DNA from: a virus
Length of the DNA: 50,091 nt
Reading direction: 5' to 3' (one strand)
Virus record (IMG/VR): IMGVR_UViG_3300032236_001323
Location: 1 to 50,091 of that record
Shown one piece after another: positions 521-48,286 of this stretch; positions within the stretch are counted from its first letter, which is position 1; each line of letters opens with the position of its first letter. A program made the position numbers and the translations under genes. Under the pieces are notes generated by a model. That model searched no databases and had not been told where the DNA came from. It saw only the letters and a list, made by a program, of their open reading frames with translations.

Positions 521-529
521 GGACATATT

Positions 530-997: not shown

Positions 998-998
998 T

Positions 999-1247: not shown

Positions 1248-1250
1248 TTG

Positions 1251-2472: not shown

Positions 2473-2480
2473 TCCCCCAA

Positions 2481-2494
2481 TTTGCATTATTATA
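2481..2494 (+). promoter_or_regulatory. Phage extended -10 promoter motif, copy P1 (endolysin)
   Basis: TTTGCATTATTATA lies 21 nt before the endolysin ATG, with a TAAGGAG ribosome binding site downstream. In this copy GCATTATTATAATGC is a perfect palindrome. No -35 hexamer is apparent. See the findings for the whole motif family. Confidence 0.75.
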
Positions 2495-2514
2495 ATGCAG
2501 AGTAAGGAGCAAAA

Positions 2515-3041: not shown

Positions 3042-3044
3042 ATA

Positions 3045-3058
3045 TTTGCATTATTATA
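3045..3058 (+). promoter_or_regulatory. Phage extended -10 promoter motif, copy P2 (tail operon)
   Basis: TTTGCATTATTATA followed by AGTAGAAC, 29 nt before the ATG of the 199-aa gene. It immediately follows a terminator hairpin and drives the tail operon 3088-9514. Confidence 0.75.
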
Positions 3059-3087
3059 AGTAGAACATTAACACTTGAGGATTCACT

Positions 3088-3854: not shown

Positions 3855-3855
3855 C

Positions 3856-4140: not shown

Positions 4141-4143
4141 CCC

Positions 4144-5828: not shown

Positions 5829-5831
5829 AAT

Positions 5832-9514: not shown

Positions 9515-9516
9515 AA

Positions 9517-9531
9517 AGGGCGTAAACCCCT
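9517..9531 (+). terminator. Weak hairpin before promoter P3
   Basis: AGGG (9517-9520) can pair with CCCT (9528-9531) around CGTAAAC, then TGATTATTT leads into the promoter. The stem is short, so termination is uncertain, but the layout matches the other terminator-promoter cassettes. Confidence 0.35.
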
Positions 9532-9536
9532 GATTA

Positions 9537-9550
9537 TTTGCATTATTATA
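9537..9550 (+). promoter_or_regulatory. Phage extended -10 promoter motif, copy P3 (internal virion operon)
   Basis: TTTGCATTATTATA followed by TGTAGAAC. It precedes a roughly 90-nt leader with a GGGAGG site before the acetyltransferase ATG and is the only motif copy serving 9644-16724. Confidence 0.75.
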
Positions 9551-9643
9551 TGTAGAACAAACAGCTTTGCCGCGAACAGGGGTTGCTCCCTTTTCTTTAC
9601 TCCCTTAAAGAATAGCGGCACCAAACAGGACAGGGAGGTCCAA

Positions 9644-10096: not shown

Positions 10097-10098
10097 TT

Positions 10099-11124: not shown

Positions 11125-11126
11125 TT

Positions 11127-12107: not shown

Positions 12108-12109
12108 CC

Positions 12110-18614: not shown

Positions 18615-18978
18615 CGTTATCTTTCAAATATTTAATAGCTGATTTTAATAGCTTAACATTGTCTTTGAACTGCCCCAATCCAAAATTACAGTGGTGGCAA
18701 AGTATGCCTCGAACTTTACCTGTGTCGTGGCAATGATCTACATTTGTAAATTTAGCTCTATCCAATTCGGTGTCACAAATAGCACACTTACCGGATTGCA
18801 TATCTATTAAATTTTGTTTTTCTTGGGAGGTTACACCATAAGCCTTTTTTAGCTTATATTCGGCGTTTAGAATCCTATAGCAATCTTTGCAATAAGAATG
18901 AAGGCCGTCTTTATGCTGTTTATTTTTACTAAAAGCAGAAAGAGGTTTTGAGATTTTACACTTACTACATTGTTTCAT
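18604..18978 (-). CDS. HNH / recombination endonuclease VII-like nuclease, 124 aa
   Basis: Two N-terminal CxxC pairs (CSKCKISKPLSAFSKN, CKDCYR) are followed by CAICDTEL...NVDHCHDTGKVRGILCHHCN, the His-Asp-His and zinc-ligand pattern of endonuclease VII / HNH enzymes. It is probably a mobile (homing-type) nuclease inserted between the promoter and polA. ATG 18978 is chosen because GGAG lies 8 nt upstream; a GTG at 18987 is less well placed. A paralogue lies at 23321-23689. Confidence 0.85.
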   Translation of the reverse strand: MKQCSKCKISKPLSAFSKNKQHKDGLHSYCKDCYRILNAEYKLKKAYGVTSQEKQNLIDMQSGKCAICDTELDRAKFTNVDHCHDTGKVRGILCHHCNFGLGQFKDNVKLLKSAIKYLKDNDAS

Positions 18979-19031
18979 AACGCACACTCCTAAGGATAAA
19001 GCTGACGTATCAGCGAATTTACTTCTCTACA

Positions 19032-19045
19032 TATAATAATGCAAA
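19032..19045 (-). promoter_or_regulatory. Phage extended -10 promoter motif, copy M1 (HNH-polA)
   Basis: On the minus strand TTTGCATTATTATA, directly preceded by the T-tract of the RNR terminator. It drives HNH and polA. A half-match to the ATTTCACAT dyad sits further upstream (19076-19089). Confidence 0.75.
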
Positions 19046-21059: not shown

Positions 21060-21578
21060 TTATACTGCGAAATCTGCAGCGGCTGTTGTAGAGCCACCGA
21101 ACTTCTCACCGTCTTCTAACTTCTGAACGTTGTTCAAACCGGCAGCAATACCTTTGGAACCGCTTGTGTCATACGGATACAAAGTGATTGAAGCGCGACC
21201 ATAGCAACCAGAATAAAACTCGCTAGTGTCGATGATTGGATTCAAATCAGCATCAACGATACCTGGCTTTTCGTTAGAGCTGGCGTTGATAAAATAATGG
21301 CCTGCGTATGCTGGATCATCTTTCTCTGCGTCACCGTCGCGTAAGCCACCCTTGAGTGTCTTAGGAATGCTGCCGCCCCACATTGTTGCGTTAGCTGCCT
21401 TGGTGTCTTCGAATGCTTTCTTAAAGCGGTTGATAGTATCTGTGTCTGATTTTGGGATCAGAATGGAAACAGAATACTTTAAAGTGCCGTTAGGTGTCTC
21501 AGCTGGTGCGAACACATTAGCGTAAGAGAAACGTACTTTGCCAGTTACAAACTTGGTCTTTACTGATTTTGATGCCAT
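21060..21578 (-). CDS. DUF2815 single-stranded DNA-binding protein, 172 aa
   Basis: The product begins MASKSVKTKFVTGKVRFSYANVF and contains KYSVSILIPKSDTDT, matching DUF2815 phage proteins that act as OB-fold ssDNA-binding proteins in replication. GG...SKGIAAGLNNVQKLEDGEKFGG is the conserved C-terminal part, ending in an acidic-poor FAV tip. ATG 21578 is chosen over 21602 because AAAAAGGAAT is 9 nt upstream. It sits between a motif promoter and a terminator. Confidence 0.85.
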   Translation of the reverse strand: MASKSVKTKFVTGKVRFSYANVFAPAETPNGTLKYSVSILIPKSDTDTINRFKKAFEDTKAANATMWGGSIPKTLKGGLRDGDAEKDDPAYAGHYFINASSNEKPGIVDADLNPIIDTSEFYSGCYGRASITLYPYDTSGSKGIAAGLNNVQKLEDGEKFGGSTTAAADFAV

Positions 21579-21644
21579 AATCTTTAATTCCTTTTTAAAC
21601 ATTAAGACTGGTCTTCAATCGGGGCCAGCCTGTCTACCCGTACA

Positions 21645-21658
21645 CATATTAATGCAAA
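21645..21658 (-). promoter_or_regulatory. Phage extended -10 promoter motif, copy M2 (ssDNA-binding protein)
   Basis: Minus strand TTTGCATTAATATG, a variant with ATTAAT instead of ATTATT. A dyad (21675-21694) lies at about -35 to -54 relative to the predicted start point. Confidence 0.65.
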
Positions 21659-21959: not shown

Positions 21960-22103
21960 CTATTTTGCCACAAGAACCAATCCTGCGTTACCTATGGCGT
22001 ATCCAATAAACATAATACCTGTGCCAATACTACCTTTATAAAACTGTTCTAATCCGACATATAAGTATACCAGACCCATTACTGCAATTAACCATGTACT
22101 CAT
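21960..22103 (-). CDS. Small membrane protein, 47 aa
   Basis: MSTWLIAVMGLVYLYVGLEQF has one hydrophobic helix and a second one near the C-terminus (IMFIGYAIGNAGLVLVAK). The start is the ATG at 22103, overlapping the end of the nuclease gene by 4 nt (ATGA). Small two-span proteins of this type are common in phage replication operons. Function unknown. Confidence 0.6.
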   Translation of the reverse strand: MSTWLIAVMGLVYLYVGLEQFYKGSIGTGIMFIGYAIGNAGLVLVAK

Positions 22104-23227
22104 GCAAAATCCTCCTTCGCACCTTCTTTGCTGCGCACCAGTTTGGGACTGCCTTCTGGTCGCTGCACAAGTTCTCCTAACCATGTAGTTACTTGCTTGT
22201 TGATTTTCTCTAATGAGGCTAGAGATTTGAGCTTAGGAGGCTCCCAAATAATTTGTGGGTCTAACCCCTTTTCTACCAAAACGGTGGCCGCTAGGGCGCT
22301 ATCAGAGATCTTGCGGTGGGTTGTTGAGGTAGTTAGTTTAAATCCGGGCGGGACAATCTCTTGTTCTACTGCTCGGTTTAATGCAAACTCTTCTACATCG
22401 TTTACCCAAGTGCGTAAGTTTTGTGCCTTTACTAAGACTTCGCTGACTTCTTCTTCGTTGAGGAGGCCCGGGGCTTTGAACTCGAGCTTGGCGAGCTCCG
22501 TGTTAAAGTCTGAGCGGGCGCGGCATTGCGCTTTGGCTTTGCAGAAACCGCACCATTCGCCTGGGAGGAACTCGCCTGAGCCACTCCACGCTTTCTTGGC
22601 TTTTTGTTTAACGTAATAATTTGCCCAGTCGACAAGTTTACTGATGCTGGTACCATCGGTACTGATACTGTCAAGCCGGGGCTGATGTATCGTGTAACTG
22701 ACTTCCTTGATTTCTGGGTACTCTTCTTTGAACTTGCTCCACGCGCCGAGGGCGTAGAGCCTGAGCTGCGGGTTGTCTTGCGCGTGGACGGGGATACCTT
22801 TTCCGAATTTAAGGTCAATAACCCGAATGGAGTGCTTAGAAAGTATAACCACATCGGCCGTACCAAAGCCGTCAGGCACCCAGTCAGAAAAGTCCACACG
22901 TTGCTCAAATAGCGGAGTATCCCCTTCTCCAATTTGGCTTCGGACGTAGAGGACGTAGTTGTCGACGTTTGCTTCGAAGTCTTCGTTGTAGTACGGGGTG
23001 TTTTTGATGATTTCATATTCTCTTTCATACTCTTCTATTCCAATTTGTCCATAATAGTGGCGTAACTTAATCTCGCCAAGGGAATGGGCCATCGTGCCTT
23101 CTTGACTAAAGTCAAAAGCATTTGAGCCTCGTTTTTGTTCTGGGAGTGTTGCTTCTAATCTGGCACTTGGGGTGCACATCATCCATCGTTTACTACCCGA
23201 TGCTGATAAAAGGGCATGAGCTGTAAT
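22100..23227 (-). CDS. DUF2800 / Cas4-like PD-(D/E)XK nuclease, starting at an ATT codon
   Basis: The core FGTADVVILSKHSIRVIDLKFGKG shows the PD-(D/E)XK arrangement (D, then D-x-K), and WCGFCKAKAQC resembles the C-terminal cysteine cluster of Cas4/RecB-type exonucleases. The first ATG (23182) would remove a conserved start. In frame upstream is HALLSASGSKRWMMCTPSAR, the usual DUF2800 N-terminus, and no ATG, GTG or TTG exists before the upstream stop. AAGGAG (23240-23235) sits 7 nt before ATT 23227, which I take as start (ATC 23230 is possible). Probable role: recombination or DNA end processing with the ssDNA-binding protein. Confidence 0.8.
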   Translation of the reverse strand: MTAHALLSASGSKRWMMCTPSARLEATLPEQKRGSNAFDFSQEGTMAHSLGEIKLRHYYGQIGIEEYEREYEIIKNTPYYNEDFEANVDNYVLYVRSQIGEGDTPLFEQRVDFSDWVPDGFGTADVVILSKHSIRVIDLKFGKGIPVHAQDNPQLRLYALGAWSKFKEEYPEIKEVSYTIHQPRLDSISTDGTSISKLVDWANYYVKQKAKKAWSGSGEFLPGEWCGFCKAKAQCRARSDFNTELAKLEFKAPGLLNEEEVSEVLVKAQNLRTWVNDVEEFALNRAVEQEIVPPGFKLTTSTTHRKISDSALAATVLVEKGLDPQIIWEPPKLKSLASLEKINKQVTTWLGELVQRPEGSPKLVRSKEGAKEDFA

Positions 23228-23281
23228 GATAATTCTCCTTTTTAGGCTGATTAGGCTTGTTTAACTTTTTTCTGTCGTACA

Positions 23282-23295
23282 TATAATAATGCAAA
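23282..23295 (-). promoter_or_regulatory. Phage extended -10 promoter motif, copy M3 (DUF2800 nuclease)
   Basis: Minus strand TTTGCATTATTATA followed by TGTACGAC. It drives the nuclease, the 47-aa membrane protein and the 85-aa protein. Confidence 0.75.
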
Positions 23296-24930: not shown

Positions 24931-24967
24931 AAGTAAAGATAGGAGAGCTTCACAGCTAGTCCTATAT

Positions 24968-24981
24968 ATAATAATGCAAAT
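24968..24981 (-). promoter_or_regulatory. Phage extended -10 promoter motif, copy M4
   Basis: Minus strand TTTGCATTATTATA followed by TATAGGAC, 128 nt upstream of the 85-aa gene and 18 nt after the previous stop codon. It serves 24840 down to about 23321. Confidence 0.75.
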
Positions 24982-26351: not shown

Positions 26352-26520
26352 GTCTTATCTCCCTGAGTTCTTTTTCCATAATCTGTAGCTCTTCAAAGCT
26401 GTCACAAACCCAGATTCCCAATAAATTTTCATAGCGGCTAGTGTCGATATCCTCCACACCAGTAATGGTTTCCATAACATAATTGCCTTTGTACCTGTGC
26501 TCTACAATAAAGTGGCTCAT
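26326..26520 (-). CDS. Small protein, 64 aa
   Basis: MSHFIVEHRYKGNYVMETIT has a compact alpha/beta look with a Glu-rich helical C-terminus. It begins in ATGA overlap with the sigma-4-like gene and overlaps DUF3310. Function unknown. Confidence 0.55.
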   Translation of the reverse strand: MSHFIVEHRYKGNYVMETITGVEDIDTSRYENLLGIWVCDSFEELQIMEKELREIRHARSSESS

Positions 26521-26828
26521 AGCTTTAATTCCTTCTTAATAAACTCGATGCCTTTAGAAAAATGATAACGCCAATACTTTTCTGTAACATTGATGTCACT
26601 GTAGGAAAGGCCATCCAAAAATGATTCTAATATGAACTGCTGTTTTGCTGGAAGTTGTTCTGCTATCAAACGTCTGATGTCAGAAATATCTTCCGGCTCC
26701 CATGGAAGCCAACCCTCGAGCATCTGAGGATAAGATTCATTACTATCGTCCTTTTCGATTGGATCAATGTCTTCATCGGAAAGGCGTGGAGCTGTTGCGC
26801 TGATCTTATGTTTTGGTTTTGTTATCAT
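26517..26828 (-). CDS. Sigma-70 region 4-like helix-turn-helix protein, 103 aa
   Basis: The C-terminal half, LPAKQQFILESFLDGLSYSD followed by INVTEKYWRYHFSKGIEFIKKELKL, follows the helix order of sigma region 4 (hydrophobic helix, turn G-L-S-Y-x-D-I, recognition helix, basic K-K-E-L end). The N-terminal half is acidic. It could supply a region 4 or beta-flap-binding function in trans to the truncated sigma at 36437-37012, like T4 gp33 with gp55; that pairing is inference. ATG 26828 lies exactly 6 nt after the hexamer of promoter M5 with no ribosome binding site, implying a leaderless mRNA. Confidence 0.6.
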   Translation of the reverse strand: MITKPKHKISATAPRLSDEDIDPIEKDDSNESYPQMLEGWLPWEPEDISDIRRLIAEQLPAKQQFILESFLDGLSYSDINVTEKYWRYHFSKGIEFIKKELKL

Positions 26829-26830
26829 GG

Positions 26831-28174
26831 CTATATTAATGCAAAATTTAAGGAATCCAAAAGGGCTTCTTGTAAATTTATTTTGCCCTCTAAAACATTG
26901 ACTACATGTTGGTCGATACTGTTGGCTATCGTTAGGTGGTGTATGATAACCGGCTTTTCTTGCCCTTGGCGGTAAATTCGTGCGTTGGCCTGAATGTAGT
27001 TTTCGCTTGACCACGGAAGATCGAACCACACTGTTTGGGCTGTCTCTCCAACGTTGCACTGTAGATTGAGCCCGATACCGCCGGATTGCGGGTGGGCAAG
27101 GAGCATACGAATTTTGCCGCTACGCCATGCAGCGATGTTGTCATCGTCCAGCACCACAGCTTCCGGGAACGCAAGACGTAAGCGGTTGAGGCTATGTTTG
27201 AAATGATAGAATACGAGTGTCGGGGATGAAGATTCCTCCATGATCGACTCAAGGTATTCCAGCTTAGCGCGGTGTACTTCTTGCGGCTCTCCTTCTTCAT
27301 TGTAGACTGCTCCAGACGTAAATTGCAGGAGCTTGTTCGCCAGTGCGGCTGCTGTAGGAGCTGTGATCTTTTCGCCCTTGATCTCAGCGACCATGTCTTT
27401 TCTAAGTTCATCGTATTGTGCCTTTACGCTTTTGTCTACTTCAATCTTGTGATAAAGCGAAGTACAGCTAGGTAGCTGCAAATAATCTTCAGCCTTAAGA
27501 CTAAAACAAATATCTGAAATCTTATTTTTAACAATCTCATCGCATCCACTCTTAAATTTCCAACTATATACAACGCGTGTATGGCGGTTCATCTGGTCTG
27601 GCATCATGTACTTGTCCCTAAAGCGGGTCAAGCTGGTTTCCAAACGCTCACCAAGATCCAATATACCCACCTGAGACCAGAGATCGGCCATGCCCTGAGG
27701 GGTTGGTGTGCCTGTGAGGATTACGCGCCTCTGGAAGCCCTTTAAATGCTTTTTAAGGGCCTTAAAACGTTTGGTTGAGGGGTCCTTAAATCGGCTGGAC
27801 TCATCTATTACTAAGTTAGTGAACACTAACTTATCTAAAAGTTCACAAAGCCATGCCACGTTTTCAAGGTTTATCAGGTAGATATCTGCGTCTTTGTTCA
27901 GCGAGGATATTCTCTGCGCAGGGGAGCCCATTATTTTGGATATCGTAAGATGTGACAAATGTTCCCACTTTTTCACTTCCGTATCCCACACTGTCTCCGC
28001 TACCCGTTTGGGCGCGATAATCAATGTCTTGCCCTTGAACTGTTCGGCTATGATTGTAAGTGTGGTCGTAGTTTTGCCCAAACCCGGTGGTAGGAATAGA
28101 CCTAAGTTCGGGATAGATTTCGCCTTCTCGATGATGTCCTTTTGGTATTGATGCAATTGGTTTCGATTTATCAT
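26831..28174 (-). CDS. SNF2-family DNA helicase/ATPase, 447 aa
   Basis: Motif I is LPPGLGKTTTT (Lys34), motif II is VIDESS (Asp124-Glu125), motif III region is LTGTPTPQG, and motifs V/VI are GGIGLNLQ and QANARIYRQGQEKP. These define an SF2 helicase of the SNF2 branch, common in phage replication modules. It likely remodels protein-DNA or branched DNA. Overlaps the HNH gene upstream by 4 nt. The 3' end doubles as promoter M5. Confidence 0.9.
   Translation of the reverse strand: MINRNQLHQYQKDIIEKAKSIPNLGLFLPPGLGKTTTTLTIIAEQFKGKTLIIAPKRVAETVWDTEVKKWEHLSHLTISKIMGSPAQRISSLNKDADIYLINLENVAWLCELLDKLVFTNLVIDESSRFKDPSTKRFKALKKHLKGFQRRVILTGTPTPQGMADLWSQVGILDLGERLETSLTRFRDKYMMPDQMNRHTRVVYSWKFKSGCDEIVKNKISDICFSLKAEDYLQLPSCTSLYHKIEVDKSVKAQYDELRKDMVAEIKGEKITAPTAAALANKLLQFTSGAVYNEEGEPQEVHRAKLEYLESIMEESSSPTLVFYHFKHSLNRLRLAFPEAVVLDDDNIAAWRSGKIRMLLAHPQSGGIGLNLQCNVGETAQTVWFDLPWSSENYIQANARIYRQGQEKPVIIHHLTIANSIDQHVVNVLEGKINLQEALLDSLNFALI
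26832..26845 (-). promoter_or_regulatory. Phage extended -10 promoter motif, copy M5 inside helicase 3' end
   Basis: Minus strand TTTGCATTAATATA encodes the last residues and stop region of the helicase (ending F-A-L-I-stop) and is followed after 3 nt by the ATG at 26828. It serves 26828 down to 24999. Confidence 0.7.
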
Positions 28175-28894: not shown

Positions 28895-29300
28895 GTTTGT
28901 CTTCCTCTGTTGCGTAAATACTAAACACCTGTTTGAAAATATGTTCGCCTAAATAAGAGCGCGATTCGTCACCAATCTTGGCTTCATCTTCTCCGATATA
29001 TTGAAAGACATGGGTAACAGTGTGTGAGACTTCGTGGTAGATCACACCTAAACGCTCCAGTGCAGACTCCTTGGCCATGTCTTCATAATTAAATACAATC
29101 GCCAGCATGGCGTGGGTTGTGCCTTCCTGTTCAATAAAGTGCGACTCTGCCAAACCAACATCCAAGGACTGATGGCGTGTTGTGATCTTGGAGTCTTTGA
29201 CAGCTTGCTGGAATGCTGCATCAGAAAAACAGATTTTGATCTTAATGCCAAAGTGTCCAGTATCTGCAATATAGTACGGCAGTTTCTTTTTCGTTTTCAT
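28701..29300 (-). CDS. HExxH putative metallopeptidase-like protein, 199 aa
   Basis: Residues 86-98 (GVIYHEVSHTVTH) contain HEVSH (His89, Glu90, His93), the zinc-binding HExxH motif, followed by an acidic helix with GEDEAKIGDESRSYLGEHI that could offer a third ligand. Similar HExxH proteins occur in phage early regions; substrate unknown. The last 64 residues are charged and low complexity and are encoded by the same DNA as the start of VRR-NUC. Its stop would fall deep in VRR-NUC, so the tail is probably overprinted. Confidence 0.65.
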   Translation of the reverse strand: MKTKKKLPYYIADTGHFGIKIKICFSDAAFQQAVKDSKITTRHQSLDVGLAESHFIEQEGTTHAMLAIVFNYEDMAKESALERLGVIYHEVSHTVTHVFQYIGEDEAKIGDESRSYLGEHIFKQVFSIYATEEDKRERARERDREAFNKLGEKIKGAKLQMDKQRNRGPGSDSIHKSKSVSSRVEDGNREAEQETRTGF

Positions 29301-29827
29301 TATTTCCTCATGTCGATGACAACGTGAATACGTTCAGTATTGCCGTTGTTTACTACACTGTGCTCTTTCTTGTTGTCAAACCACCATATCTCTCCAGCGC
29401 TCATGTGAACCTCTTCTGTTTCACACTTAAACTTCACACCAGAGTTGGTAGTAATCACTAAGTGAAATCGATCATGCGCTTTAGCATATTCGCCTTCATC
29501 AATATGGGGTTTGATAACTGCGCCAGAATGCAACTTGGCTACAATGACTCTCCCTAGTCTTGCGTTATCAAACGTTGCTGCTACTAACTTCATTGTCTCT
29601 TTTAAAAAACCCTGAGAAAAATAGTCAACACAATTAAGCTCATTAAAATAACTCGTCAATGTATGCTGCCCTTGTACTGGCTGAAACCGTAACACAATGT
29701 CATCCGCAACATTATGATACAGCCCTGGAGCTTTGCGCAAGTTAAGCCAGTTCCACAGGTTTGTAGCGTTAAGCTCTTTTGCAATAGCTTCTGGATTGAA
29801 CCGTTCAATTAACTTAAAGTTTTCCAT
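29300..29827 (-). CDS. Aspartyl/asparaginyl beta-hydroxylase-like Fe(II)/2OG oxygenase, 175 aa
   Basis: IKPHIDEGEY supplies His108 and Asp110, HSVVNNG supplies His156 and ERIHVVID supplies Arg166 for 2-oxoglutarate, the expected facial triad and co-substrate residue. GEIWWFDNKKEHSVVNNG is the conserved C-terminal strand pair of this family. Phage members may modify host or phage proteins; the target is unknown. It overlaps neighbouring start/stop codons by one base. Confidence 0.82.
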   Translation of the reverse strand: MENFKLIERFNPEAIAKELNATNLWNWLNLRKAPGLYHNVADDIVLRFQPVQGQHTLTSYFNELNCVDYFSQGFLKETMKLVAATFDNARLGRVIVAKLHSGAVIKPHIDEGEYAKAHDRFHLVITTNSGVKFKCETEEVHMSAGEIWWFDNKKEHSVVNNGNTERIHVVIDMRK

Positions 29828-31075: not shown

Positions 31076-31540
31076 TTATTCCCTTAAGTCTATATAATTG
31101 GCAAACTTAATATATGCCGATACTGAGCTATCAAACTGTAATCCTGATTGTCTTGCGTCCGCCAATACACCATCGAGCGAGTACGAATTCGAGTTGCGTA
31201 TTGTATAGCTGCTTTCTTCGTATGTTTCTACTGTATTGGTCAGTCGATTAATATAAGTCACTTTGGCGTATCCTTCTACTCTTCCTGATGAGAACTGGCC
31301 TCGTACTATCTTAACGTGGTTTGAATGGTTCCACGCCTGTACATAGGCTCCAATCCCTTTTAAACCCGTCCAGCCACAATTGCCAAGGTATACTGCTGCA
31401 GAATTGGGTCTATAATCTGATAGCACCACTTTACAGCGGCTGCCAGAGGGGTTATCCATAAATCCAGCAGATACTGCCATCTCATCAGCAAAACAAATTG
31501 ATGGTAATATTAATGCAAAAATGAGAAATTTATTTTTCAT
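31076..31540 (-). CDS. Putative secreted/periplasmic protein, 154 aa
   Basis: MKNKFLIFALILPSICFADE is a clear signal peptide with a probable cleavage after CFA. The mature chain is Ser/Tyr-rich beta-like sequence with two Cys. It pairs with the lipoprotein gene downstream (1-nt gap). A copy of the promoter-like motif occurs within its signal-peptide codons. Function unknown. Confidence 0.65.
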   Translation of the reverse strand: MKNKFLIFALILPSICFADEMAVSAGFMDNPSGSRCKVVLSDYRPNSAAVYLGNCGWTGLKGIGAYVQAWNHSNHVKIVRGQFSSGRVEGYAKVTYINRLTNTVETYEESSYTIRNSNSYSLDGVLADARQSGLQFDSSVSAYIKFANYIDLRE

Positions 31541-32678: not shown

Positions 32679-33135
32679 AATTCCTCTTGTCTTGGTTTGA
32701 TTGATGTTGCCAATCATCACCCACGTTGGTTGGTTTTACTCCGTTGAGCCATTGCTGGATGGATAAAAACGCGCCGCCCTTTTCTCCGCTCTTGCCGCCG
32801 TGCCAAGTAGATGGTGATACTCTAATGAATTTTCCGTAATGCACTGAGGCACCATTAAAGTTAGGCGTATTGTCTCTTGGTGTTAATACCTGTCCGTTAA
32901 TGGTGAATTCAATGTCTCCAGATAAAAATACTTCAAAAGAATCAACGTTGGGGTGTAGGTGTTCGGGTATGACCGTATTGGGGTCTAACACAAACAACTG
33001 CACCTGCCAGCACTCAGCTCTGTAAAGCACAAGCCCGCGGATGTTGTTGTCAAAGGCAATGGAGTTATTCTGCGGCACAGTGAATGGCCGTGTTTTAATC
33101 CACCAATCTTTGAATCGGGTTAAATCATCCATCAA
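32665..33135 (-). CDS. Cupin-fold protein A, 156 aa
   Basis: VIPEHLHPNVDSFEVFLSGD and STWHGGKSGEKGGAFLSIQQW align with the neighbouring paralogue (for example WYRAEPWQVEL versus LYRAECWQVQL). H-x-H and a later H are consistent with a metal-binding cupin. It overlaps the primase stop and the second cupin start, so both are in the primase operon. Confidence 0.68.
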   Translation of the reverse strand: MMDDLTRFKDWWIKTRPFTVPQNNSIAFDNNIRGLVLYRAECWQVQLFVLDPNTVIPEHLHPNVDSFEVFLSGDIEFTINGQVLTPRDNTPNFNGASVHYGKFIRVSPSTWHGGKSGEKGGAFLSIQQWLNGVKPTNVGDDWQHQSNQDKRNYANT

Positions 33136-35429
33136 AATATATCCTCTTCAAACTTAACCTGATTGTCCACGAACTTCTGAGCACGTTCATTGAGCTTAAC
33201 GCCAACATACAAGTGAATCCTGTTGCCGTTGGTGCGATCCAACCGGTCATCAACTGCGTGCTCTTGAACTGCGGCAATAAACCGCTTCTTAAACACCAGC
33301 TCAGTCCCTGGAGGTATGCTCTTATTGAGCGCCCACTTCTTGTACGCTGTGAATACATCATCTTTAGGCACGGATGCCTTCGGATCAAATACCAGAGCGT
33401 CTTCAACGAACGTCCCAATGGGGTTGCCCAACTCGGCCATCAACTCCAAATAACCACGTCCAGACTGAGGCTGAATGAAGTGACCGCCACGCGCTAGGCG
33501 ACGTGCCAACCCCTGCATTGCCCAGTTAAAAATACCGCCGAGCTCTTTCTCCAACTTAGTAAACAGTCCAGTGTCCTCCTTGTCATAGAACGAACGTGTC
33601 ATCTTGATAACGATCATACGTCCGGTCAATGCGTTGGAGTTCTCGGTTAACTGTAAAACCTCGTTAGAATAAACAACAATCCGAGTAGGCAGATAGCCAT
33701 TCCAAGATTCTTTGTTTTTCCGGTTGACAGTAATGGTATCGCCCCCCACAATACGGAGCAGCTGAGATACAACAGCAGATCTATTGCGCTCAGGCGCTCT
33801 TGCATCAGTAAAAGAAGCGAGGAGCTTACCCAGCCAAGGCTGCAGACCAAAGGTATCACAAAGTTCTCCTAATTCAGGTGCTACGGTGTTGTGCTGTCCT
33901 AATAGTGACACTAACACCTTGTTAATAGTCCCCTTGCCGGAGCGACGGGGTCCGATAATGTTAAAAAACTTCTGCTGGCTAGTATCGCCTGACAGAATAT
34001 AACCAAACATCTCTTGCAACGTGTCAATCGACTCCTGATCATCCGGCCATACCGAGCGCAGGAAAGAGTCCCACTGGGGGCAGGTAGCAGACTGATCATA
34101 CTCGAACGGCAAAGAGTTTTGAGTAAAGAATCCCAGTGAGTGCGGAATCAAAATCGACTCTTCTAAATGAAACAATCCGTTCTTCAATGACACCAGCTTA
34201 GAGGCATCAGGCTTACTTGACGCATAAGACTCAAACCAAATTGGTGGCTTGGTGTTCGCATGGTTCGGTAAGTGCACAATGGACTTGACTGCGTCCAGTG
34301 CGGCGCTGACCGAGGCGGGCGATGGGTTGAACGGCTGCAGTGAACCTTGCTTTCCTGGCTTCTTGCATTTGTCCAACAGGGCATACAGTTTAGATCTAAC
34401 TGTTTGCTCCTCCAAGATCTCGTAGTGAGTCCCCTGATACACATAAAAGTCCTGAGCGTAGTGGACTATCCGATACCCCTCTTCGCTTGAATACTGCGTG
34501 TCGAGAAAGGTACGGGCATGGTTCATTGCGCCTTGATCGAGAATAATCTCGCCCCGCGCCAATGCTTGCTGCCGCTCCTTTTGGTTTACTTTAAACAGCA
34601 GGGTACGCAGTGTGGCACCGCCGCCCTTAAAAGTCCTCCACTTGTTCTCACAAGCGTTTTGGTGATAGTCCGCACCCTTGGAGCTCCAACGATCCCACAG
34701 CTCGCACGCCTCTACATCACCCTCAAACTGGTGGTGCAGGATCATGCCTACTTTGAGCCAATCGTCGTATCCGTAGTCATCTAGGTGCGCTAGGATCTCG
34801 GTTTCTACCCTGTGGATGTCATAGCCGTCCAAGGGGGCGTTGTAGTCCGCAAACTTATCGCCCGTGTTGGTGATGGTTCTAGCAGGCACAATGTCTGTTA
34901 AGTCCACAGGGGTGGTCGGGATGTTAGTCCCTCGCAGTGCGTGACCTGTCACTGTGAAGTAACGTGACTTGGGGTAAATCTCCAGTCCAATGGAGTGGTC
35001 AACGTGGCTGGCTGGCAGGTTGGCGCGGGTGAAGATCTTAACACCAGTCCCAGAGGGGCTGACCTCCATATAGCCGTCCACTTGGTCTGCAATATGCTGC
35101 AATGCAGCATTATTGAAACGCCTTTCTTGGACATCATAGCAGTCATCCAAATCGACACCGATCAGATTATCCTCATCACTAAACACGAACCCAATGCCGT
35201 CGTATTTGCCGTTGGAGGACTCATAAGCAGATTGGATGGACAGAAAGTCCGTCCAGTGCGCTGGGTTGGTTGAGGAGGCGGATTGCCCTGATGTCTGCAT
35301 TGGCATTTTAGCCCAACGCTTGTTGTCCTCGTCTCCGATCTCAACAAAGCGCCACAACACCCACCTAGGGATCTGCTTTAAGTCCATAGGGATGCTGTTA
35401 AATTGTACGGGCAGGCTTGTTGGTTTCAT
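33132..35429 (-). CDS. Bifunctional primase-polymerase / D5-like superfamily 3 helicase, 765 aa
   Basis: The N-terminal third resembles a primase-polymerase (AEP-like) domain, with GVDLDD at residues 91-96 and VSPSGTGVKIF near 123. A PriCT-like linker follows (around 210-270, YDDWLKVGMILHHQF). The C-terminal half has a D5-like helicase with Walker A GPRRSGKGT (Lys499), then SFTDAR and VVYSNEVLQL (sensor region). It would prime and unwind at the origin. The motif promoter 35449-35462 and dyad 35477-35497 lie just upstream. Confidence 0.88.
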   Translation of the reverse strand: MKPTSLPVQFNSIPMDLKQIPRWVLWRFVEIGDEDNKRWAKMPMQTSGQSASSTNPAHWTDFLSIQSAYESSNGKYDGIGFVFSDEDNLIGVDLDDCYDVQERRFNNAALQHIADQVDGYMEVSPSGTGVKIFTRANLPASHVDHSIGLEIYPKSRYFTVTGHALRGTNIPTTPVDLTDIVPARTITNTGDKFADYNAPLDGYDIHRVETEILAHLDDYGYDDWLKVGMILHHQFEGDVEACELWDRWSSKGADYHQNACENKWRTFKGGGATLRTLLFKVNQKERQQALARGEIILDQGAMNHARTFLDTQYSSEEGYRIVHYAQDFYVYQGTHYEILEEQTVRSKLYALLDKCKKPGKQGSLQPFNPSPASVSAALDAVKSIVHLPNHANTKPPIWFESYASSKPDASKLVSLKNGLFHLEESILIPHSLGFFTQNSLPFEYDQSATCPQWDSFLRSVWPDDQESIDTLQEMFGYILSGDTSQQKFFNIIGPRRSGKGTINKVLVSLLGQHNTVAPELGELCDTFGLQPWLGKLLASFTDARAPERNRSAVVSQLLRIVGGDTITVNRKNKESWNGYLPTRIVVYSNEVLQLTENSNALTGRMIVIKMTRSFYDKEDTGLFTKLEKELGGIFNWAMQGLARRLARGGHFIQPQSGRGYLELMAELGNPIGTFVEDALVFDPKASVPKDDVFTAYKKWALNKSIPPGTELVFKKRFIAAVQEHAVDDRLDRTNGNRIHLYVGVKLNERAQKFVDNQVKFEEDIF

Positions 35430-35448
35430 TCGTTCCTTTCTTCTTGCC

Positions 35449-35462
35449 TATAATAATGCAAA
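35449..35462 (-). promoter_or_regulatory. Phage extended -10 promoter motif, copy M6 (primase operon)
   Basis: Minus strand TTTGCATTATTATA, 20 nt upstream of the primase ATG with a GAAAGGAACG site. A dyad lies at about -33 to -53. It serves the long operon from the primase to the helicase. Confidence 0.78.
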
Positions 35463-35497: not shown

Positions 35498-35789
35498 CTA
35501 TGTGGGGTGTTAGGGTTTACCCTTAAGGGTTTACCCCTAGTCCCTGACAAGGGTGACACAAGGGTGACACAGCCTAACTGCAGATAGCGACAAATGCCAG
35601 TATTTTAGCTACAAATGGATACAGATAATACGGATTGTCACCCTTGTCACCATTGTCACCCTCTATTTCATTTATTTATTTATTTATTTAAAAAAATAAA
35701 ATAAATATATAGGATAAAGTGATTTAGACCCTGACAATGGTGACAAGGGTGACAATTTCTAGTGGTTGTCACCCTAAAACATACTACAT
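35498..35789. other. Non-coding iteron region upstream of the primase
   Basis: No gene is visible here. It contains GGGTTTACCC twice (35513-35522 and 35527-35536), two direct GGGTGACACA-type sites (35546-35570), and the large inverted iteron element 35633-35758 with an A+T-rich centre (TTTATTTATT repeats). A last half-site TTGTCACCCT follows at 35766-35775. The content suggests a replication origin or regulator-binding region. Confidence 0.6.
35633..35758. repeat. Inverted iteron element, copy 1
   Basis: The left arm has ATTGTCACCCTTGTCACC continuing ATTGTCA; the right arm is its reverse complement (TGACAATGGTGACAAGGG continuing TGACAAT), about 25 bp perfectly inverted around a roughly 70-bp A+T-rich core. 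A near-identical element lies at 41302-41425. Confidence 0.8.
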
Positions 35790-36436: not shown

Positions 36437-37012
36437 TTATTCCTCGTTTTCCTCGTTGTGTTTTTCTTGGTTCAATGAGTCCAGTGACACTGGCTCTCTG
36501 CTGATGTAGCCCTTGAGCTGGTAGATCTTACTAGGTGATACGTCCATAATGGTAGCAAGCTCTTGCGTGGTGGGTTTACGTCCCAACACCTGCGCGAGTG
36601 CCTGCTCGTTGTAATTCATGCGCTTGATGCCCTCCATAATGTTAATTGGTAGCCTGATGATGTTACTGGTGTTATCTAACTCCCTTTGCACGCCCCTAAT
36701 AATGAACGAGCGAGCGAACGCTGAGAATCGAATGTTGCCCATGGGTTTCCAGCGTTTAGCCGCGATGATTAGCATCTCGTTGCCGATGCCAATCACGTCC
36801 TCGACGGGTGTTTTGCCGTGTTGCCAGTACGAGCCCTTTTTGAGAACGTAAGGCACAAAGCGCAGGTTATGCTTGACCAGCTTGTCCAGTGCCTTGCTAT
36901 CCCCTTTGGCGATGCGCAGTCCCAAGTCCCTCTCCTCCTCAAGGGATAACATGGGGATGTCCATTCGCATCAGCTCTTGCAGGTAATCGGTTTTAATATC
37001 GTTGTCACTCAA
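36437..37012 (-). CDS. Sigma-70-like factor lacking region 4, 191 aa
   Basis: Residues 8-37 (YLQELMRMDIPMLSLEEERD...) match sigma region 1.2, residues 38-115 region 2 (LVKHNLRFVPYVL, VEDVIGIGNEMLI, IRFSAFARSFIIRGVQREL) and residues 118-180 region 3 (IIRLPINIMEGIKR, GRKPTTQELATIMDVSPSKI, EPVSLDS). The chain ends there, so region 4 and -35 recognition are absent. The region 2.3/2.4 Trp-Trp pair of sigma-70 is replaced by Ser-Phe, implying altered -10 recognition. It probably directs RNA polymerase to the TTTGCATTATTATA promoters. Located in the host-sigma-driven early operon. Confidence 0.85.
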   Translation of the reverse strand: MSDNDIKTDYLQELMRMDIPMLSLEEERDLGLRIAKGDSKALDKLVKHNLRFVPYVLKKGSYWQHGKTPVEDVIGIGNEMLIIAAKRWKPMGNIRFSAFARSFIIRGVQRELDNTSNIIRLPINIMEGIKRMNYNEQALAQVLGRKPTTQELATIMDVSPSKIYQLKGYISREPVSLDSLNQEKHNEENEE

Positions 37013-40527: not shown

Positions 40528-40557
40528 AGTATAGCGACCTTTGGTTTAATCTGTCAA
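40528..40557 (-). promoter_or_regulatory. Leftward host sigma-70-type early promoter
   Basis: On the minus strand TTGACA (40557-40552) is separated by 18 bp from TATACT (40533-40528). This is close to consensus and points at the early operon beginning at 40366. No other site in the hub fits sigma-70 this well. Confidence 0.7.
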
Positions 40558-41027: not shown

Positions 41028-41301
41028 TTCACCTATGAGGCAGAGAGGCTATGTGTCACGTTTGGCCCTCCTTTTCTTGAGGGGGTGTTGTTTATATACC
41101 ACATAGCCCAATTTGGGTCCTATCCGGCTCGGCGGGGGCGGGGGCCCCACAAAGCTCAAGTTTGTATAATTTTCCACATTGTGAAAAAAGTCAACTTCCT
41201 AAAATTTTTTTTGAAAAATTGTCACCCTTGCTCCAAAATTGTCACCCTTCCAAATAGGAATCATTCTTATTTGACTACCAGCAATCAATGACTTACAAGG
41301 C

Positions 41302-41425
41302 GATTGTCACCCTTGTCACCCTTGTCACCCCTTATTTCATTTATTTTTTATTTTTTATTTAAAAAGAAAAAAAGTTTAAGGAAAAGTCAAACAGACCCTG
41401 ACAATGGTGACAAGGGTGACAATTT
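41302..41425. repeat. Inverted iteron element, copy 2
   Basis: The left arm ATTGTCACCCTTGTCACC and the right arm GACAATGGTGACAAGGGTGA are as in copy 1, with one mismatch between arms and a different A+T-rich core (TTATTTTTTATTTTTT...). Copy 1 and copy 2 bracket the early operon. Confidence 0.8.
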
Positions 41426-41464: not shown

Positions 41465-41478
41465 TTTGCATTATTATA
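41465..41478 (+). promoter_or_regulatory. Phage extended -10 promoter motif, copy P4 (Hint-terminase)
   Basis: TTTGCATTATTATA followed by AGTATG. The ATG at 41482 lies exactly 6 nt after the ATTATT hexamer and has no ribosome binding site, implying a leaderless mRNA. Confidence 0.75.
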
Positions 41479-41481
41479 AGT

Positions 41482-41790
41482 ATGAACAAATACGCATACC
41501 AAATTCAGGGTGCACTGGAAAATAGGCAGGGTCAATTGCTTGGCCTGCGTGTTTTGGTGTGCGATGTGTATAACTTTGATTCGGTTGACGTACCTGTAGA
41601 GGTAATAGACTCAGAAACCGCAAAGTACTTACAGTTCAGGCTAAGTATCACGGCAGAATCGCTTAATGTCAAAAACCTGCCAGTGGAAATCCAAAACCGA
41701 ATACGCGCTCCGTTAGGGAGATGGCTGGACCAATGGGTCCTCGAAAACTTCTATGGCAATTCTCGCAACACAAAAAGTACTAACTCTTGA
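41482..41790 (+). CDS. Unknown protein ahead of the packaging genes, 102 aa
   Basis: MNKYAYQIQGALENRQGQLL then LRVLVCDVYNFDSVDVPVEV is alpha/beta with a helical basic C-terminus; no family recognised. It overlaps the Hint-domain gene by 38 nt. The start directly follows promoter P4 without a leader. Confidence 0.6.
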   Translation: MNKYAYQIQGALENRQGQLLGLRVLVCDVYNFDSVDVPVEVIDSETAKYLQFRLSITAESLNVKNLPVEIQNRIRAPLGRWLDQWVLENFYGNSRNTKSTNS

Positions 41791-44195: not shown

Positions 44196-44200
44196 GTTCC

Positions 44201-44213
44201 TTGCATTATTATA
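44201..44213 (+). promoter_or_regulatory. Phage extended -10 promoter motif, copy P5 (portal)
   Basis: TTGCATTATTATA followed by AATAGGAATATCTT and the ATG at 44228; the TAGGA acts as ribosome binding site within a short leader. Confidence 0.72.
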
Positions 44214-44227
44214 AATAGGAATATCTT

Positions 44228-44971
44228 ATGAACCTTGCTAAAACACCACATCAAATACTGCTGGAAAAGGCAGGGTTGTCCTTGGATCCTAGTCCGGGGC
44301 TTGTTAACACGCCCCAACAAATGCTATTGCAGCAAGCAAACGCTTTGCCCCAATACGCACCTGGCGGCGCTGTTCGCCAAAACCTTTCCCCTGCTGATAT
44401 GCAGGCGGCAATGATTATTCAAGGCCACACACCACAAAAGTTTGCTAGCGGTGGTCAAGCAGCTCAATCAAAGCATGTTACACAATTACGAGACGAAATG
44501 AATCGTAATTTATTAAAGATAAAACACAGCCCACTTAGTGCTCTTTGGAATGCACTAAACTTTTTTGACGTTGGTGCTGAAGGATACGAAGCAGCAAAAA
44601 ACGCATCTCAAGGAAAAGCAGTTCCAGCTACAGAGCATGCGTTTAAATCCTTGTCAGGAATTCCTGCAGCAATGCCTTCTGTACCCATGGCAGTTTCTTT
44701 GGGCGTACCAGTTGCTGGCCAACAGTTAGCAGACTATGCTACTGAGCACATGGCGCAAAATCCACAGTTTAGACAACAAATGCTAGATGTAACCTCATCA
44801 CCATTGGGTGGCGCACTTAGTGGTGATGCAGGACTAGCAGCAAACATTATGGGCAATCTCGATTACTCCCAAGCATTACAAGATCGATTACCCCAAGAAC
44901 AAACACCGGCAGAACAGCCCGTTCAACAACGACGCGTTTCTCCTCTGTATCAAAAAACAATGGTTAAATAA
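44228..44971 (+). CDS. Virion-region protein with duplicated N-terminal helix and GG modules, 247 aa
   Basis: Two related segments (KTPHQILLEKAG and NTPQQMLLQQAN) start the protein, followed by YAPGGAV and FASGGQA modules like those of the tail and ejected proteins. The rest is helical (residues 85-230) with weakly hydrophobic Ala/Gly/Pro patches. It sits between terminase and portal and shares its last base with the portal ATG. Possibly a minor capsid or ejected protein. Confidence 0.55.
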   Translation: MNLAKTPHQILLEKAGLSLDPSPGLVNTPQQMLLQQANALPQYAPGGAVRQNLSPADMQAAMIIQGHTPQKFASGGQAAQSKHVTQLRDEMNRNLLKIKHSPLSALWNALNFFDVGAEGYEAAKNASQGKAVPATEHAFKSLSGIPAAMPSVPMAVSLGVPVAGQQLADYATEHMAQNPQFRQQMLDVTSSPLGGALSGDAGLAANIMGNLDYSQALQDRLPQEQTPAEQPVQQRRVSPLYQKTMVK

Positions 44972-47823
44972 TGGCAAATCCACAACTACCTATTCAAGCA
45001 GGCAGCAATCTTCCAGGGCTAGACACGCGCGATGAAGACTTAGAAAAAGCGCAAGAACAAGAAGCCGATATGGAAGCCTATGAGGCTGAACTTGGCCTTG
45101 ATGCTGATGAGGTAGAAGAAGAACTTATTGAACTGGAAGACGGTTCTGTTGTAGTTAACTTTCAAGAAAAGAAATCTCCACAACAAGACCCAGAGTTTTA
45201 TGCAAACTTGGCAGAAGTGTTTGATGATCAGACACTTCAGTCTCTTGCTGTAGAGTTTTTAGATTTTATTGACGTAGACAAAGAAGCACGTTCAGAGCGA
45301 GACAAACAGTATGAAGAAGGATTACGTAGAACAGGACTTGGCAAAGATGCACCTGGCGGCGCAACGTTTGATGGCGCGTCTAAGGTTGTTCATCCTGTCA
45401 TGGCGGAAGCCTGCGTAGACTTTGCTGCGTCTGCTGCCAAAGAATTACTACCTTGCGACGGTCTGGTTAAGACTGACATCAAAGGCAATGCTGATCAAAT
45501 AAAATCCAAAACTGCAGAACGTAAAGCAAACTTTATGAACTGGCAGTTGACAGAACAAATCCCCGAATACCGAGATGAGATGGAACAACTGTTTACTCAG
45601 TTGCCACTTGGCGGTTCACAGTTCTTAAAATGGCGCTTTGATTCTGAGCAGCGCCGTCCTACCTGTGAGTGGGTCGCAATCGACAATATCCTATTACCGT
45701 ACTCTTCTACAAACTTCTACACATCCCCACGGGTAACAGAAGTACAGGACATTACAGAAGATACGTTCTTACAGCGCGTTGAGGCTGGTATCTACCGTGA
45801 TATCGACTCACAATATTCGTCTGATGCGCCACTTACAGATCAAACTCGGTCTGAAAAAGCAAACGCAAAGATCGAGGGTAAGTCTGAGCCATCGAAGAAT
45901 ATTGACGGCCTGCGTCGCATTTACGAGATCACCTGCTTCATTCGTTTAGAAGATGATCCCTTAACTGACGGTCGTCGCGCCCCATACATTTTAACAATTG
46001 ACGAGTCCTCTTCTAAGGTACTCGCACTTTATCGCAACTGGGAAGCGAATGATGAGAAGCTCGAAAAACTGGATTGGTATGTTGAGTTCAAATTCATTCC
46101 TTGGCGCGGTGCTTATGCTATTGGTCTCCCCCATCTTATTGGTGGGCTCTCTGCTGCTCTTACTGGTTCTCTACGCGCTCTGCTTGATGCTGCTCATATC
46201 AACAACAGTCAGACGATGCTTAAGCTCAAAGGTGGACGAATTGGTGGCCAGAGTGACAGAATTGAACCCACTCAAGTAATTGAGATTGAAGGCGCCCCTG
46301 GTGTTGACGACGTTCGCAAGATTGCGATGCCAATGCCATTTAACCAGCCATCTTCTGTGCTGTATAACCTTCTCGGTTGGTTGACAGACGCAGCTAAAGG
46401 TGTTGTAACTACCGCCGAAGAAAAAATTGGCGAAGCAAACAACAACATGCCAGTTGGCACAGCCCAAGCTCTGATTGAGCAAGGTGCTAAGGTGTTCTCT
46501 GCAATTCATGCACGCATGCACCGAAGCCAAGCTAAGTCTTTGGCAATTGTTTCTCGTCTTAACCACTGGTACCTCGATGAGATGGACAACCAGTCTGGTG
46601 AAGAGATTCGCGTACGTGACTTTGCGTCAAACAACGACATCCGTCCAGTTTCAGATCCTAACATTTTCTCTGAGACACAGCGTGTTGCACAAAACCAAGC
46701 CCTCCTACAGATGGCTACTTCAGCGCCTCCAGGAATGTTTGACATTCGTGGTGTGTATCGCCGAGTATTGGAACAACTTAAAGTTCCAAACATCGATGAA
46801 GTATTGCCAAACCCATTAGGCGCAGCAGAATCGAATCCCGCGTTAGAAAACGTATCGATGACAATGGGACGCCCTGCTGCTGCCTATCCTGATCAAGACC
46901 ATATTGCACACATCCGCGTTCACTTAGATTATGCTAATAATCCAGCTTACGGCGGTAACCCAGTTATTGGTCCTGTGTTTGCACCGCACGCGCTAGAGCA
47001 CATCAAGCAGCACTTGACATTGCACTATTTGCAATCCATGCGTGCTTATGTGGCAGAAGCGTCTGGTGGCAAGGATACATTGGACTTGCATCAAGAAAAA
47101 CCACTGGACTTGGACGCACAGCAAGCTCTTGCACTGGCTTCACAGATGGTCAGCCAAGACGCTCAGCAAAACATGGCGCAGTATGTACAGCAGATCCAAG
47201 CATTGGCTCAAAAAGTGGCTCAAGCTCAGCAACAAGCTCAGCAAAATGCCGCAGCTGCCGATCCAACTGCTCAGGTATTGCTCAAGACCCAGATGGCAGA
47301 GACACAACGCAAACAAGCCGAATCTCAGGCACGTATGCAGCTCGAAGCCTCCCAGGACAAGCAAGATTACCAGCTCAAGATTGCAGAGTTGCAGCAAAAA
47401 GTGGCCGAGTTGCAAACCAAGTACCAAACTCAAACTGCTATCGACTCCAACAAAAACGCTACGCAGATTGCTATGGCCGATATTAACAACGCCTCAAGAG
47501 AGCGTATTGCTGCTATCCAAGCAAATGCCGCTCTCTCAAGCGATCAGTTGGCATTAGCTCACGAACAGAACATGACTGCTATGGAAGCATCACAGCAAGC
47601 CGATCAAGCTATTCGTCAGCATGGCCTAGAAATTGAACAACAGGCATTCCAGCAACAAGCTGAACAAGTCAAGCAACAAATTGCCGCGCAACAGCAGGCA
47701 CAAGCTGCTGCCCAGCAGCATCAGCAGCAATTAGTACAAAATGCCCAGCAGCATCAACAGGCATTACAACAACAAGCAGCAGCACCACAACCAACGCAAC
47801 AACCCCCTATCGAAGGACAATAA
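44971..47823 (+). CDS. Large podovirus portal protein with Gln-rich barrel-like tail, 950 aa
   Basis: Residues about 100-700 follow podoviral portal patterns (YEEGLRRTGLGKDAPGGATF, VVHPVMAEACVDFAASAAKE, later LDAAHINNSQTMLKLKGGR). Residues about 705-950 are a Gln/Ala-rich coiled coil with repeated QQAQQ, KVAELQTKY and similar blocks, plausibly a long helical barrel entering the capsid as in P22 gp1. The acidic N-terminal 90 residues are unusual. The portal forms the dodecameric DNA channel and binds the terminase. Confidence 0.85.
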   Translation: MANPQLPIQAGSNLPGLDTRDEDLEKAQEQEADMEAYEAELGLDADEVEEELIELEDGSVVVNFQEKKSPQQDPEFYANLAEVFDDQTLQSLAVEFLDFIDVDKEARSERDKQYEEGLRRTGLGKDAPGGATFDGASKVVHPVMAEACVDFAASAAKELLPCDGLVKTDIKGNADQIKSKTAERKANFMNWQLTEQIPEYRDEMEQLFTQLPLGGSQFLKWRFDSEQRRPTCEWVAIDNILLPYSSTNFYTSPRVTEVQDITEDTFLQRVEAGIYRDIDSQYSSDAPLTDQTRSEKANAKIEGKSEPSKNIDGLRRIYEITCFIRLEDDPLTDGRRAPYILTIDESSSKVLALYRNWEANDEKLEKLDWYVEFKFIPWRGAYAIGLPHLIGGLSAALTGSLRALLDAAHINNSQTMLKLKGGRIGGQSDRIEPTQVIEIEGAPGVDDVRKIAMPMPFNQPSSVLYNLLGWLTDAAKGVVTTAEEKIGEANNNMPVGTAQALIEQGAKVFSAIHARMHRSQAKSLAIVSRLNHWYLDEMDNQSGEEIRVRDFASNNDIRPVSDPNIFSETQRVAQNQALLQMATSAPPGMFDIRGVYRRVLEQLKVPNIDEVLPNPLGAAESNPALENVSMTMGRPAAAYPDQDHIAHIRVHLDYANNPAYGGNPVIGPVFAPHALEHIKQHLTLHYLQSMRAYVAEASGGKDTLDLHQEKPLDLDAQQALALASQMVSQDAQQNMAQYVQQIQALAQKVAQAQQQAQQNAAAADPTAQVLLKTQMAETQRKQAESQARMQLEASQDKQDYQLKIAELQQKVAELQTKYQTQTAIDSNKNATQIAMADINNASRERIAAIQANAALSSDQLALAHEQNMTAMEASQQADQAIRQHGLEIEQQAFQQQAEQVKQQIAAQQQAQAAAQQHQQQLVQNAQQHQQALQQQAAAPQPTQQPPIEGQ

Positions 47824-48058: not shown

Positions 48059-48080
48059 GGGCGGAAAACTCGCCCTGTTT
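48059..48080 (+). terminator. Hairpin terminator fused to promoter P6
   Basis: GGGCG (48059-48063) pairs with CGCCC (48071-48075) around GAAAACT, followed by TGTTT, the last T's of which belong to the promoter motif. Confidence 0.6.
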
Positions 48081-48091
48081 GCATTATTATT
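48078..48091 (+). promoter_or_regulatory. Phage extended -10 promoter motif, copy P6 (capsid genes)
   Basis: TTTGCATTATTATT followed by AATATG. The ATG at 48095 is exactly 6 nt after the ATTATT hexamer, again without a ribosome binding site, implying a leaderless mRNA. Confidence 0.72.
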
Positions 48092-48094
48092 AAT

Positions 48095-48286
48095 ATGAAA
48101 GACTTTTTGTCACAAATTATTGCGCGTACGCGCGATGAACAAACCAAATTGGCGGATACTCTCACCGCTGGTGCTAATGTCAATTCCTTTGAGGATTATC
48201 AGCGTTTAGTTGGTAGATACGAAGGATTTAAAGAAGTACTTGACATTATTAATGAAATTTTGAGAGAGGACGAAGAAGACCTGTAA
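48095..48286 (+). CDS. Small acidic helical protein, 63 aa
   Basis: MKDFLSQIIARTRDEQTKLA then TAGANVNSFEDYQRLVGRYE is helical with an acidic end (REDEEDL). It starts directly at promoter P6. Such small proteins often precede scaffold genes; function unknown. Confidence 0.62.
   Translation: MKDFLSQIIARTRDEQTKLADTLTAGANVNSFEDYQRLVGRYEGFKEVLDIINEILREDEEDL

Follow-up and report, generated by a model that had tools for sequence, protein, structure and literature searches.

We found by computational analysis that a virus record from IMG/VR, analysed here over all of its 50,091 bases (the window), encodes a shortened sigma factor with regions 1.2, 2 and 3, which very probably directs the host core RNA polymerase to promoters consisting of an extended -10 element only, together with a separate sigma4-like protein, its possible partner. 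The parts of this explanation that were read from the sequence are the anatomy of the protein, the motif, the positions of the motif, its co-occurrence with the sigma gene and its spacing to start codons; core binding, transcription, binding of the sigma4-like protein and timing are what we infer. The positions of the genes and of the candidate promoters are given in Table 1.

Table 1. The sigma gene, the sigma4-like gene and predicted promoters in the window
Feature	Position	Strand	Basis
Phage sigma factor, 191 aa; regions 1.2-2-3 and short acidic tail, without region 4	36437..37012	minus	Pfam, phmmer, hhalign, AlphaFold2/Foldseek
Small protein of 103 aa, sigma4-like; its ATG coincides with position 17 of the motif site at 26845	26517..26828	minus	Pfam, PHROGs, AlphaFold2, Foldseek
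Closest match to a host sigma-70-type promoter (TTGACA-18-TATACT, 11/12), ahead of the early (-) operon with sigma	40528..40557	minus	sigma-70 consensus
Candidate motif promoter, the nearest one downstream of the sigma gene; precedes primase/helicase gene 33132-35429	35445..35462	minus	motif match
Candidate motif promoter, 2-mismatch copy TTGCATTAATATT	31502..31519	minus	motif match
Candidate motif promoter for the leaderless sigma4-like gene	26828..26845	minus	motif match and ATG at position 17
Candidate motif promoter	24963..24980	minus	motif match
Candidate motif promoter before DUF2800 nuclease-like gene 22100-23182	23278..23295	minus	motif match
Candidate motif promoter, 2 mismatches, before ssDNA-binding protein gene 21060-21602	21641..21658	minus	motif match
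Candidate motif promoter after GC-rich hairpin, upstream of ORF 18604-18987 and DNA polymerase A gene 16725-18614	19028..19045	minus	motif match
Candidate motif promoter at start of the late (+) operon; leaderless ATG at 41482	41465..41482	plus	motif match and spacing
Candidate motif promoter upstream of 44228-44971 and portal gene 44971-47823	44200..44217	plus	motif match
Candidate motif promoter; leaderless 63-aa gene, ATG at 48095	48078..48095	plus	motif match and spacing
Candidate motif promoter before lysozyme gene 2515-3033	2481..2498	plus	motif match
Candidate motif promoter after hairpin, before 3088-3687	3045..3062	plus	motif match
Candidate motif promoter after hairpin, before 9644-10096	9537..9554	plus	motif match

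A phage sigma factor that ends before region 4

The sigma gene opens with a TTG codon that overlaps the stop of the preceding gene (TTGA), and its product carries the PHROGs label RNA polymerase sigma factor. Pfam matched Sigma70_r3 above its cut-off (1.6e-6) and r1.2 and r2 below theirs (7e-4 and 0.0075, respectively), and it detected no region 4 in the 191 residues. Residues 4-180 matched B. subtilis SigA in phmmer (2.9e-18). Comparison with E. coli RpoD by hhalign (98.9%; 163 columns, 31% identity) aligned the protein with residues 341-509 of 613, and the match therefore stops at the end of region 3. These three methods confirm the claim of an earlier note on this DNA that regions 1.2, 2 and 3 of sigma-70 are present and that the protein ends before region 4. 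Across the window, PF04545 and PF08281 gave weak matches only and no full region 4.

The earlier note had also described the Trp-Trp pair of region 2 as replaced by Ser-Phe. The alignment bore this out, placing S102-F103 of the window sigma at the position of W433-W434 of RpoD (FSAFARSF versus FSTYATWW); the invariant dyad of the sigma-70 family is not present. Equivalents of sigma-70 E458, R441 and R451 are retained, and the Q437 and T440 positions are altered. An AlphaFold2 model built on a 55-sequence family alignment was all helices, with a mean pLDDT of 81, and its nearest solved structures in Foldseek were SigmaS and SigA (E 6e-9 to SigmaS). By the profile matches and the predicted fold of its regions 2 and 3, the window protein is a primary-type member of the sigma-70 family.

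Protein scans of IMG/VR for relatives of the sigma returned 17 and then 191 (80 kept). Two further relatives, from a genome scan for hosts, lie on contigs binned with freshwater betaproteobacteria, which are too few to name a host. Every relative listed in the cultivated-phage collection was at most 40% identical. All 101 relatives that we read lack region 4, measure 182-193 aa and have a stop codon at the end, after a short acidic tail. Absence of region 4 is thus a family trait and not the result of a broken gene. The region 2.3 Trp pair is replaced in all relatives, by S, P, A, T or another residue followed by F.

An extended -10 motif with a predicted start at a fixed distance

Matches to TTGCATTATTATA with up to two mismatches numbered 17 in the window versus 2.3 +/- 1.6 in shuffled sequences, and none of 100 shuffles was as high as 17. 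From the window matches we retained 13 sites of the form TTTGCATTAnTAT(A)nnnTA, all co-oriented with the downstream gene. The clade-wide core reads TTTGCATTAnT; behind it an A is conserved, at position 17 when the first T counts as 0. The earlier note had suggested that the phage promoters have no -35 element, and this held in both sets: we detected no -35-like conservation upstream of the 13 window sites and no conserved -35-type hexamer in 98 non-redundant clade sites. UP-like A/T phasing upstream of the clade sites was weak and may stem from related sites.

The spacing of start codons indicated where transcripts would begin. Of the 241 de-duplicated sites, 46 have an ATG at exactly motif position 17, compared with 0-9 at nearby spacings, in a count that took open frames of at least 40 residues and in which orthologous sites enter more than once. 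The genes with this spacing are of several unrelated kinds: the first late gene, the 63-aa gene, the primase, the sigma4-like gene and small ones encoding about 55 and 95-127 aa. The pile-up of ATG codons places the transcript start at the conserved A, with leaderless messages, and a start at position 17 gives the register T-15 G-14 C-13 A-12 T-11 T-10 A-9 n-8 T-7. Read in this register, the motif is an extended -10 element with a predicted start 17 nt after the first T. Since the leaderless ATG at 41482 fits the motif site there, the ATG at 41404 in the list of open reading frames is probably not the true start of the first late gene.

A first register, in which TAnTAT (positions 7-12) was the -10 hexamer, was rejected for two reasons: the AT at positions 11-12 is missing in many clade copies, and the transcript start would lie downstream of the ATG pile-up. 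A Bacteroidetes-type -7 element (TAnnTTTG) was also considered and matched one site only. Nor was a terminator hairpin before the motif a consistent feature, only a minority of sites having one: a hairpin below -12 kcal/mol just upstream was predicted for 15% of sites versus 3% of controls, the overall shift being not significant.

In our view the motif is scarcely credible as an RNA or replication element instead of a promoter. Numerous copies, all co-oriented with genes, could suit such an element, but the fixed distance to ATG codons and the hairpin just upstream at some sites fit transcript starts.

Order of the motif and of host-type promoter matches along the genome

Genes in the window run rightward at 128-16724, leftward from 40366 to 16725 and rightward again from 41.4 kb to the end. 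At about 60 sigma loci, the last 2 kb before the sigma gene contain no motif on its strand, and the stretch 2-4 kb upstream contains only 3 matches. The onset of the motif lies 1.2-1.6 kb downstream of the sigma gene, and opposite-strand sites occur beyond 4 kb from it, at late-gene starts. Strong sigma-70-type -35/-10 matches have the opposite pattern, being dense within 5 kb ahead of sigma. This layout fits a presumed timing in which the host polymerase would read the early operon, followed by sigma-directed middle and late transcription.

Two other genes on the leftward strand were noted. One (19093-20967) encodes a cobalamin-dependent ribonucleotide reductase near marine roseophage versions, and the other (29300-29827) is an aspartyl/asparaginyl hydroxylase-like gene that was not seen in 16 relatives.

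The motif accompanies the sigma gene and varies with it

The 24 sigma-clade records (1.02 Mb) contain 103 exact cores (reversed control, 5), and 27 sister-clade records without the sigma (1.1 Mb) contain 2, which amounts essentially to one clade contrast. The sister records had been picked by portal protein, and nine of them are longer than 48 kb. MW202545 and Caulobacter phage RW, two complete phages that likewise have no sigma, contain no core. Four sigma-bearing records have no exact core; in three of these a shifted core takes its place, G032 having TTTGTATTATTATA and both G026 and G018 having GCGTATTAGT. In G028, a sigma-bearing record on a long branch, neither the motif nor the sigma4-like protein was found. 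A blind prediction of the motif from its residues S98 and R130 is ..GTATTAAT. The same genome (L260-L262) carries many CCAGAAATACCAGA-type repeats and may use another promoter.

Residue 98, aligned with T429 of sigma-70, is the top alignment column by mutual information with base -8: T occurs with G, G or A with T, and S with A. Residue 130, near E458, is K in 83/83 phages with C-13 and Y or R in both T-13 lineages. Joint changes of base and residue on the tree number only about two per position, too few for significance, and the covariation is therefore concordant and statistically not decisive; when the automatic labels are set more loosely, a few rows, those with one or two sites, are discordant. 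In sigma-70, E458 and R441 contact G-14 and the W-dyad contacts T-12 (PMC4593229), and T429 serves as a fulcrum, with the flipped bases -11 and -7 on either side (PMC4496690). The phage sigma retains the readers of G-14 (E127 and R110, corresponding to E458 and R441) along with G-14 itself, and its W-dyad is altered jointly with bases -12/-11.

Gene architecture, co-occurrence relative to the sister clade, leaderless spacing and covariation together support the link between a sigma lacking region 4 and promoters lacking a -35, as the earlier note had proposed, at the level of sequence. A point against the explanation is that an earlier purely computational motif for a phage sigma, that of phage 7-11 (PMC4331800), differs from the consensus later mapped experimentally (PMC8948821).

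Two other readers of the motif were weighed. Host sigma-70 might use it as an extended -10 promoter, with the phage sigma acting otherwise, for example as an inhibitor or decoy of core. We consider this unlikely, even though the alternative register in the window, TAnTAT, is near TATAAT and sigma-70 can use an extended -10 without a -35 (PMC4593229). The leaderless spacing sets A-12 T-11 and not T-12 A-11; the TAnTAT box is missing in many clade copies (TTTGCATTAGTTGATA, TTTGCATTAGTGTATA) and the motif from sister phages; a base of the motif varies with the phage sigma; and the early region has ordinary -35/-10 matches instead.

It is very unlikely that the sigma is incidental and that another phage factor, either a phage RNA polymerase or an activator, reads the motif. 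Single-subunit phage polymerases also typically recognise one contiguous element and have a fixed start, which speaks for such a factor. However, the motif bases vary with sigma residues located at the -10 DNA, and a T7-type polymerase was not found in ten clade genomes, a weak test in which control genomes were likewise negative.

A separate sigma4-like protein

The sigma4-like protein is present in all long sigma-clade genomes that cover its locus, except the divergent, motif-less G028. It was absent from 17 sister records and two complete relatives, and was not found in cultivated phages. Its start lies 7.8-9.2 kb downstream of the sigma gene at loci with both and elsewhere at about 11-12 kb, and a motif site is located within 60 nt of this start at 49 of 80 loci.

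Matches of the protein to sigma region 4 were weak (best 0.0022 in Pfam and 8.7e-5 in PHROGs), and hhalign of its profile against RpoD region 4 gave no match. PDB sequence matches of the profile (a tendon-repeat protein and PEP carboxykinase) are non-sigma and look spurious. AlphaFold2 predicted three confident helices at residues 45-100. In a Foldseek search of the PDB, the top 11 matches of this model were all sigma factors or sigma region 4 (best E 0.17, probability 0.99), and it superposed on SigW domain 4 with an rmsd of 1.5 over 49 columns. The model lacks the first HTH helix, the one that precedes the recognition helix, as would fit promoters without a -35. Sequence matches and predicted fold suggest that the phage encodes a region-4-like piece as a separate protein, which amends the earlier note, where this protein is not mentioned.

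It is possible, and in our estimate just short of probable, that the phage has evolved a split sigma, with sigma2-3 and a sigma4-like partner in trans, reaching a logic like that of gp55/gp33 independently. Sigma2-3 would open the middle promoters, including the leaderless one that makes the partner. The partner, with its damaged HTH, would bind the flap, read no DNA and switch or strengthen late transcription. Promoter and sigma would co-diverge over a large freshwater phage clade.

We hold it somewhat more doubtful that the 103-aa protein is an unrelated, co-inherited HTH regulator, the sigma being merely devoid of region 4 and not split. Weak sequence scores, the missing first HTH helix and the negative hhalign result point in that direction, whereas the fold search gives sigma region 4 first and almost exclusively, the protein is found wherever sigma-clade contigs cover the locus and never in sister records, and its gene often stands directly behind the motif.

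Second, diverged sigma4-like copies (40% and 28% identical) were seen in the early region near sigma, at G002:C1:15331-15612 and in L030 (about 8.8-9.1 kb) / L031 (about 3.1-3.4 kb). A search for a full region 4 elsewhere with PF04545 gave only short HTH open reading frames of 54-56 aa in G012 and G029. These (G012:C1:17512-17682 and G029:C1:32670-32834) encode an HTH like sigma region 4.2 and were not seen to be conserved across the clade.

Proposed mechanism and comparison with known systems

In the mechanism that we propose, the host sigma-70 holoenzyme would read the early operon, from which the shortened sigma (regions 1.2-2-3) would be made and would then bind host core RNA polymerase. 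Core with phage sigma would recognise promoters made of the extended -10 only, in the register given above, and transcripts would begin at the conserved A, 17 nt past the first T. G-14 would be read by the retained R110 and E127, the usual contacts to T-12/A-11 (W433, W434, Q437) would have been replaced along with the bases, and residue 98 would set the choice of base -8. Motif promoters would drive the replication genes, the late genes and the separate sigma4-like protein, which would probably sit on the beta flap in lieu of region 4 and read no -35.

The earlier note had likened the system to T4 gp55. In T4, late transcription relies on gp55 (sigma), gp33 (a sigma4 mimic) and the gp45 clamp (PMC2988020), and the resemblance stands as an analogy: a small sigma without region 4, promoters without a -35 and a second small protein for region 4 encoded far off. 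Sequence kinship did not stand, hhalign of the phage sigma against gp55 giving a probability of 0.2%, a value that excludes close kinship only, since gp55 is itself very divergent. Another difference is that gp33 has no recognisable sigma homology, whereas the partner here resembles region 4.

The closest published precedent for a missing region 4 combined with a single-element promoter is phiEco32 gp36 (PMC8948821). This sigma has no region 4 homology, uses promoters with a single element, tAATGTAtA, and no -35, and serves middle and late genes after early genes read by the host (PMC8948821). By description the two systems are alike in the first two features and probably also in the third. 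Unlike in gp36, regions 1.2, 2 and 3 are recognisable here and primary-sigma-like, the motif (TTGCATTAnT) contains the TG of an extended -10, the predicted starts are often leaderless, and a sigma4-like protein is present in trans. By analogy, the phage system may function like T4 gp55/gp33 and phiEco32 gp36.

A cellular two-part sigma is SigO-RsoA of Bacillus subtilis, which has one part of about 9 kDa and acts in the acid-stress response (PMC10141391). Its sigma activity is distributed over two polypeptides, an arrangement that co-inheritance would suggest for the phage; in the phage genome the parts lie about 8-12 kb apart, probably on separate transcripts. With the primary sigmas E. coli RpoD and B. 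subtilis SigA the phage protein shares regions 1.2-3 and the equivalents of E458, R441 and R451, and it differs from them in lacking region 4, in the replacement of W433/W434, in the altered Q437/T440 and in its new -10 sequence.

If true, this would be a second, apparently independent phage sigma split into a DNA-reading and a region-4-like part, and it would explain how early, middle and late genes are read in a common, uncultivated freshwater phage group. About 100 sigma/promoter pairs occur naturally in the clade, with residues 98 and 130 and bases -8 and -13 changing jointly, so that base-by-base recognition of the -10 and the requirement for region 4 become directly testable.

Several repeats were observed besides the motif. 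The window has two clusters of about 10-bp repeats (35538-35760 and 41200-41420), formed by TTGTCACCCT and its complement with A/T-rich flanks, which look like replication-origin iterons or operator arrays. Part of the sigma clade (L039, L058, L072, L077, G012, G033) carries the palindrome GTTTAAAC, with up to 18 copies of one 10-mer per genome. Another palindrome, TTCACATTGTGAA / TCACAATGTGA, recurs in about 30 clade loci and is possibly an operator.
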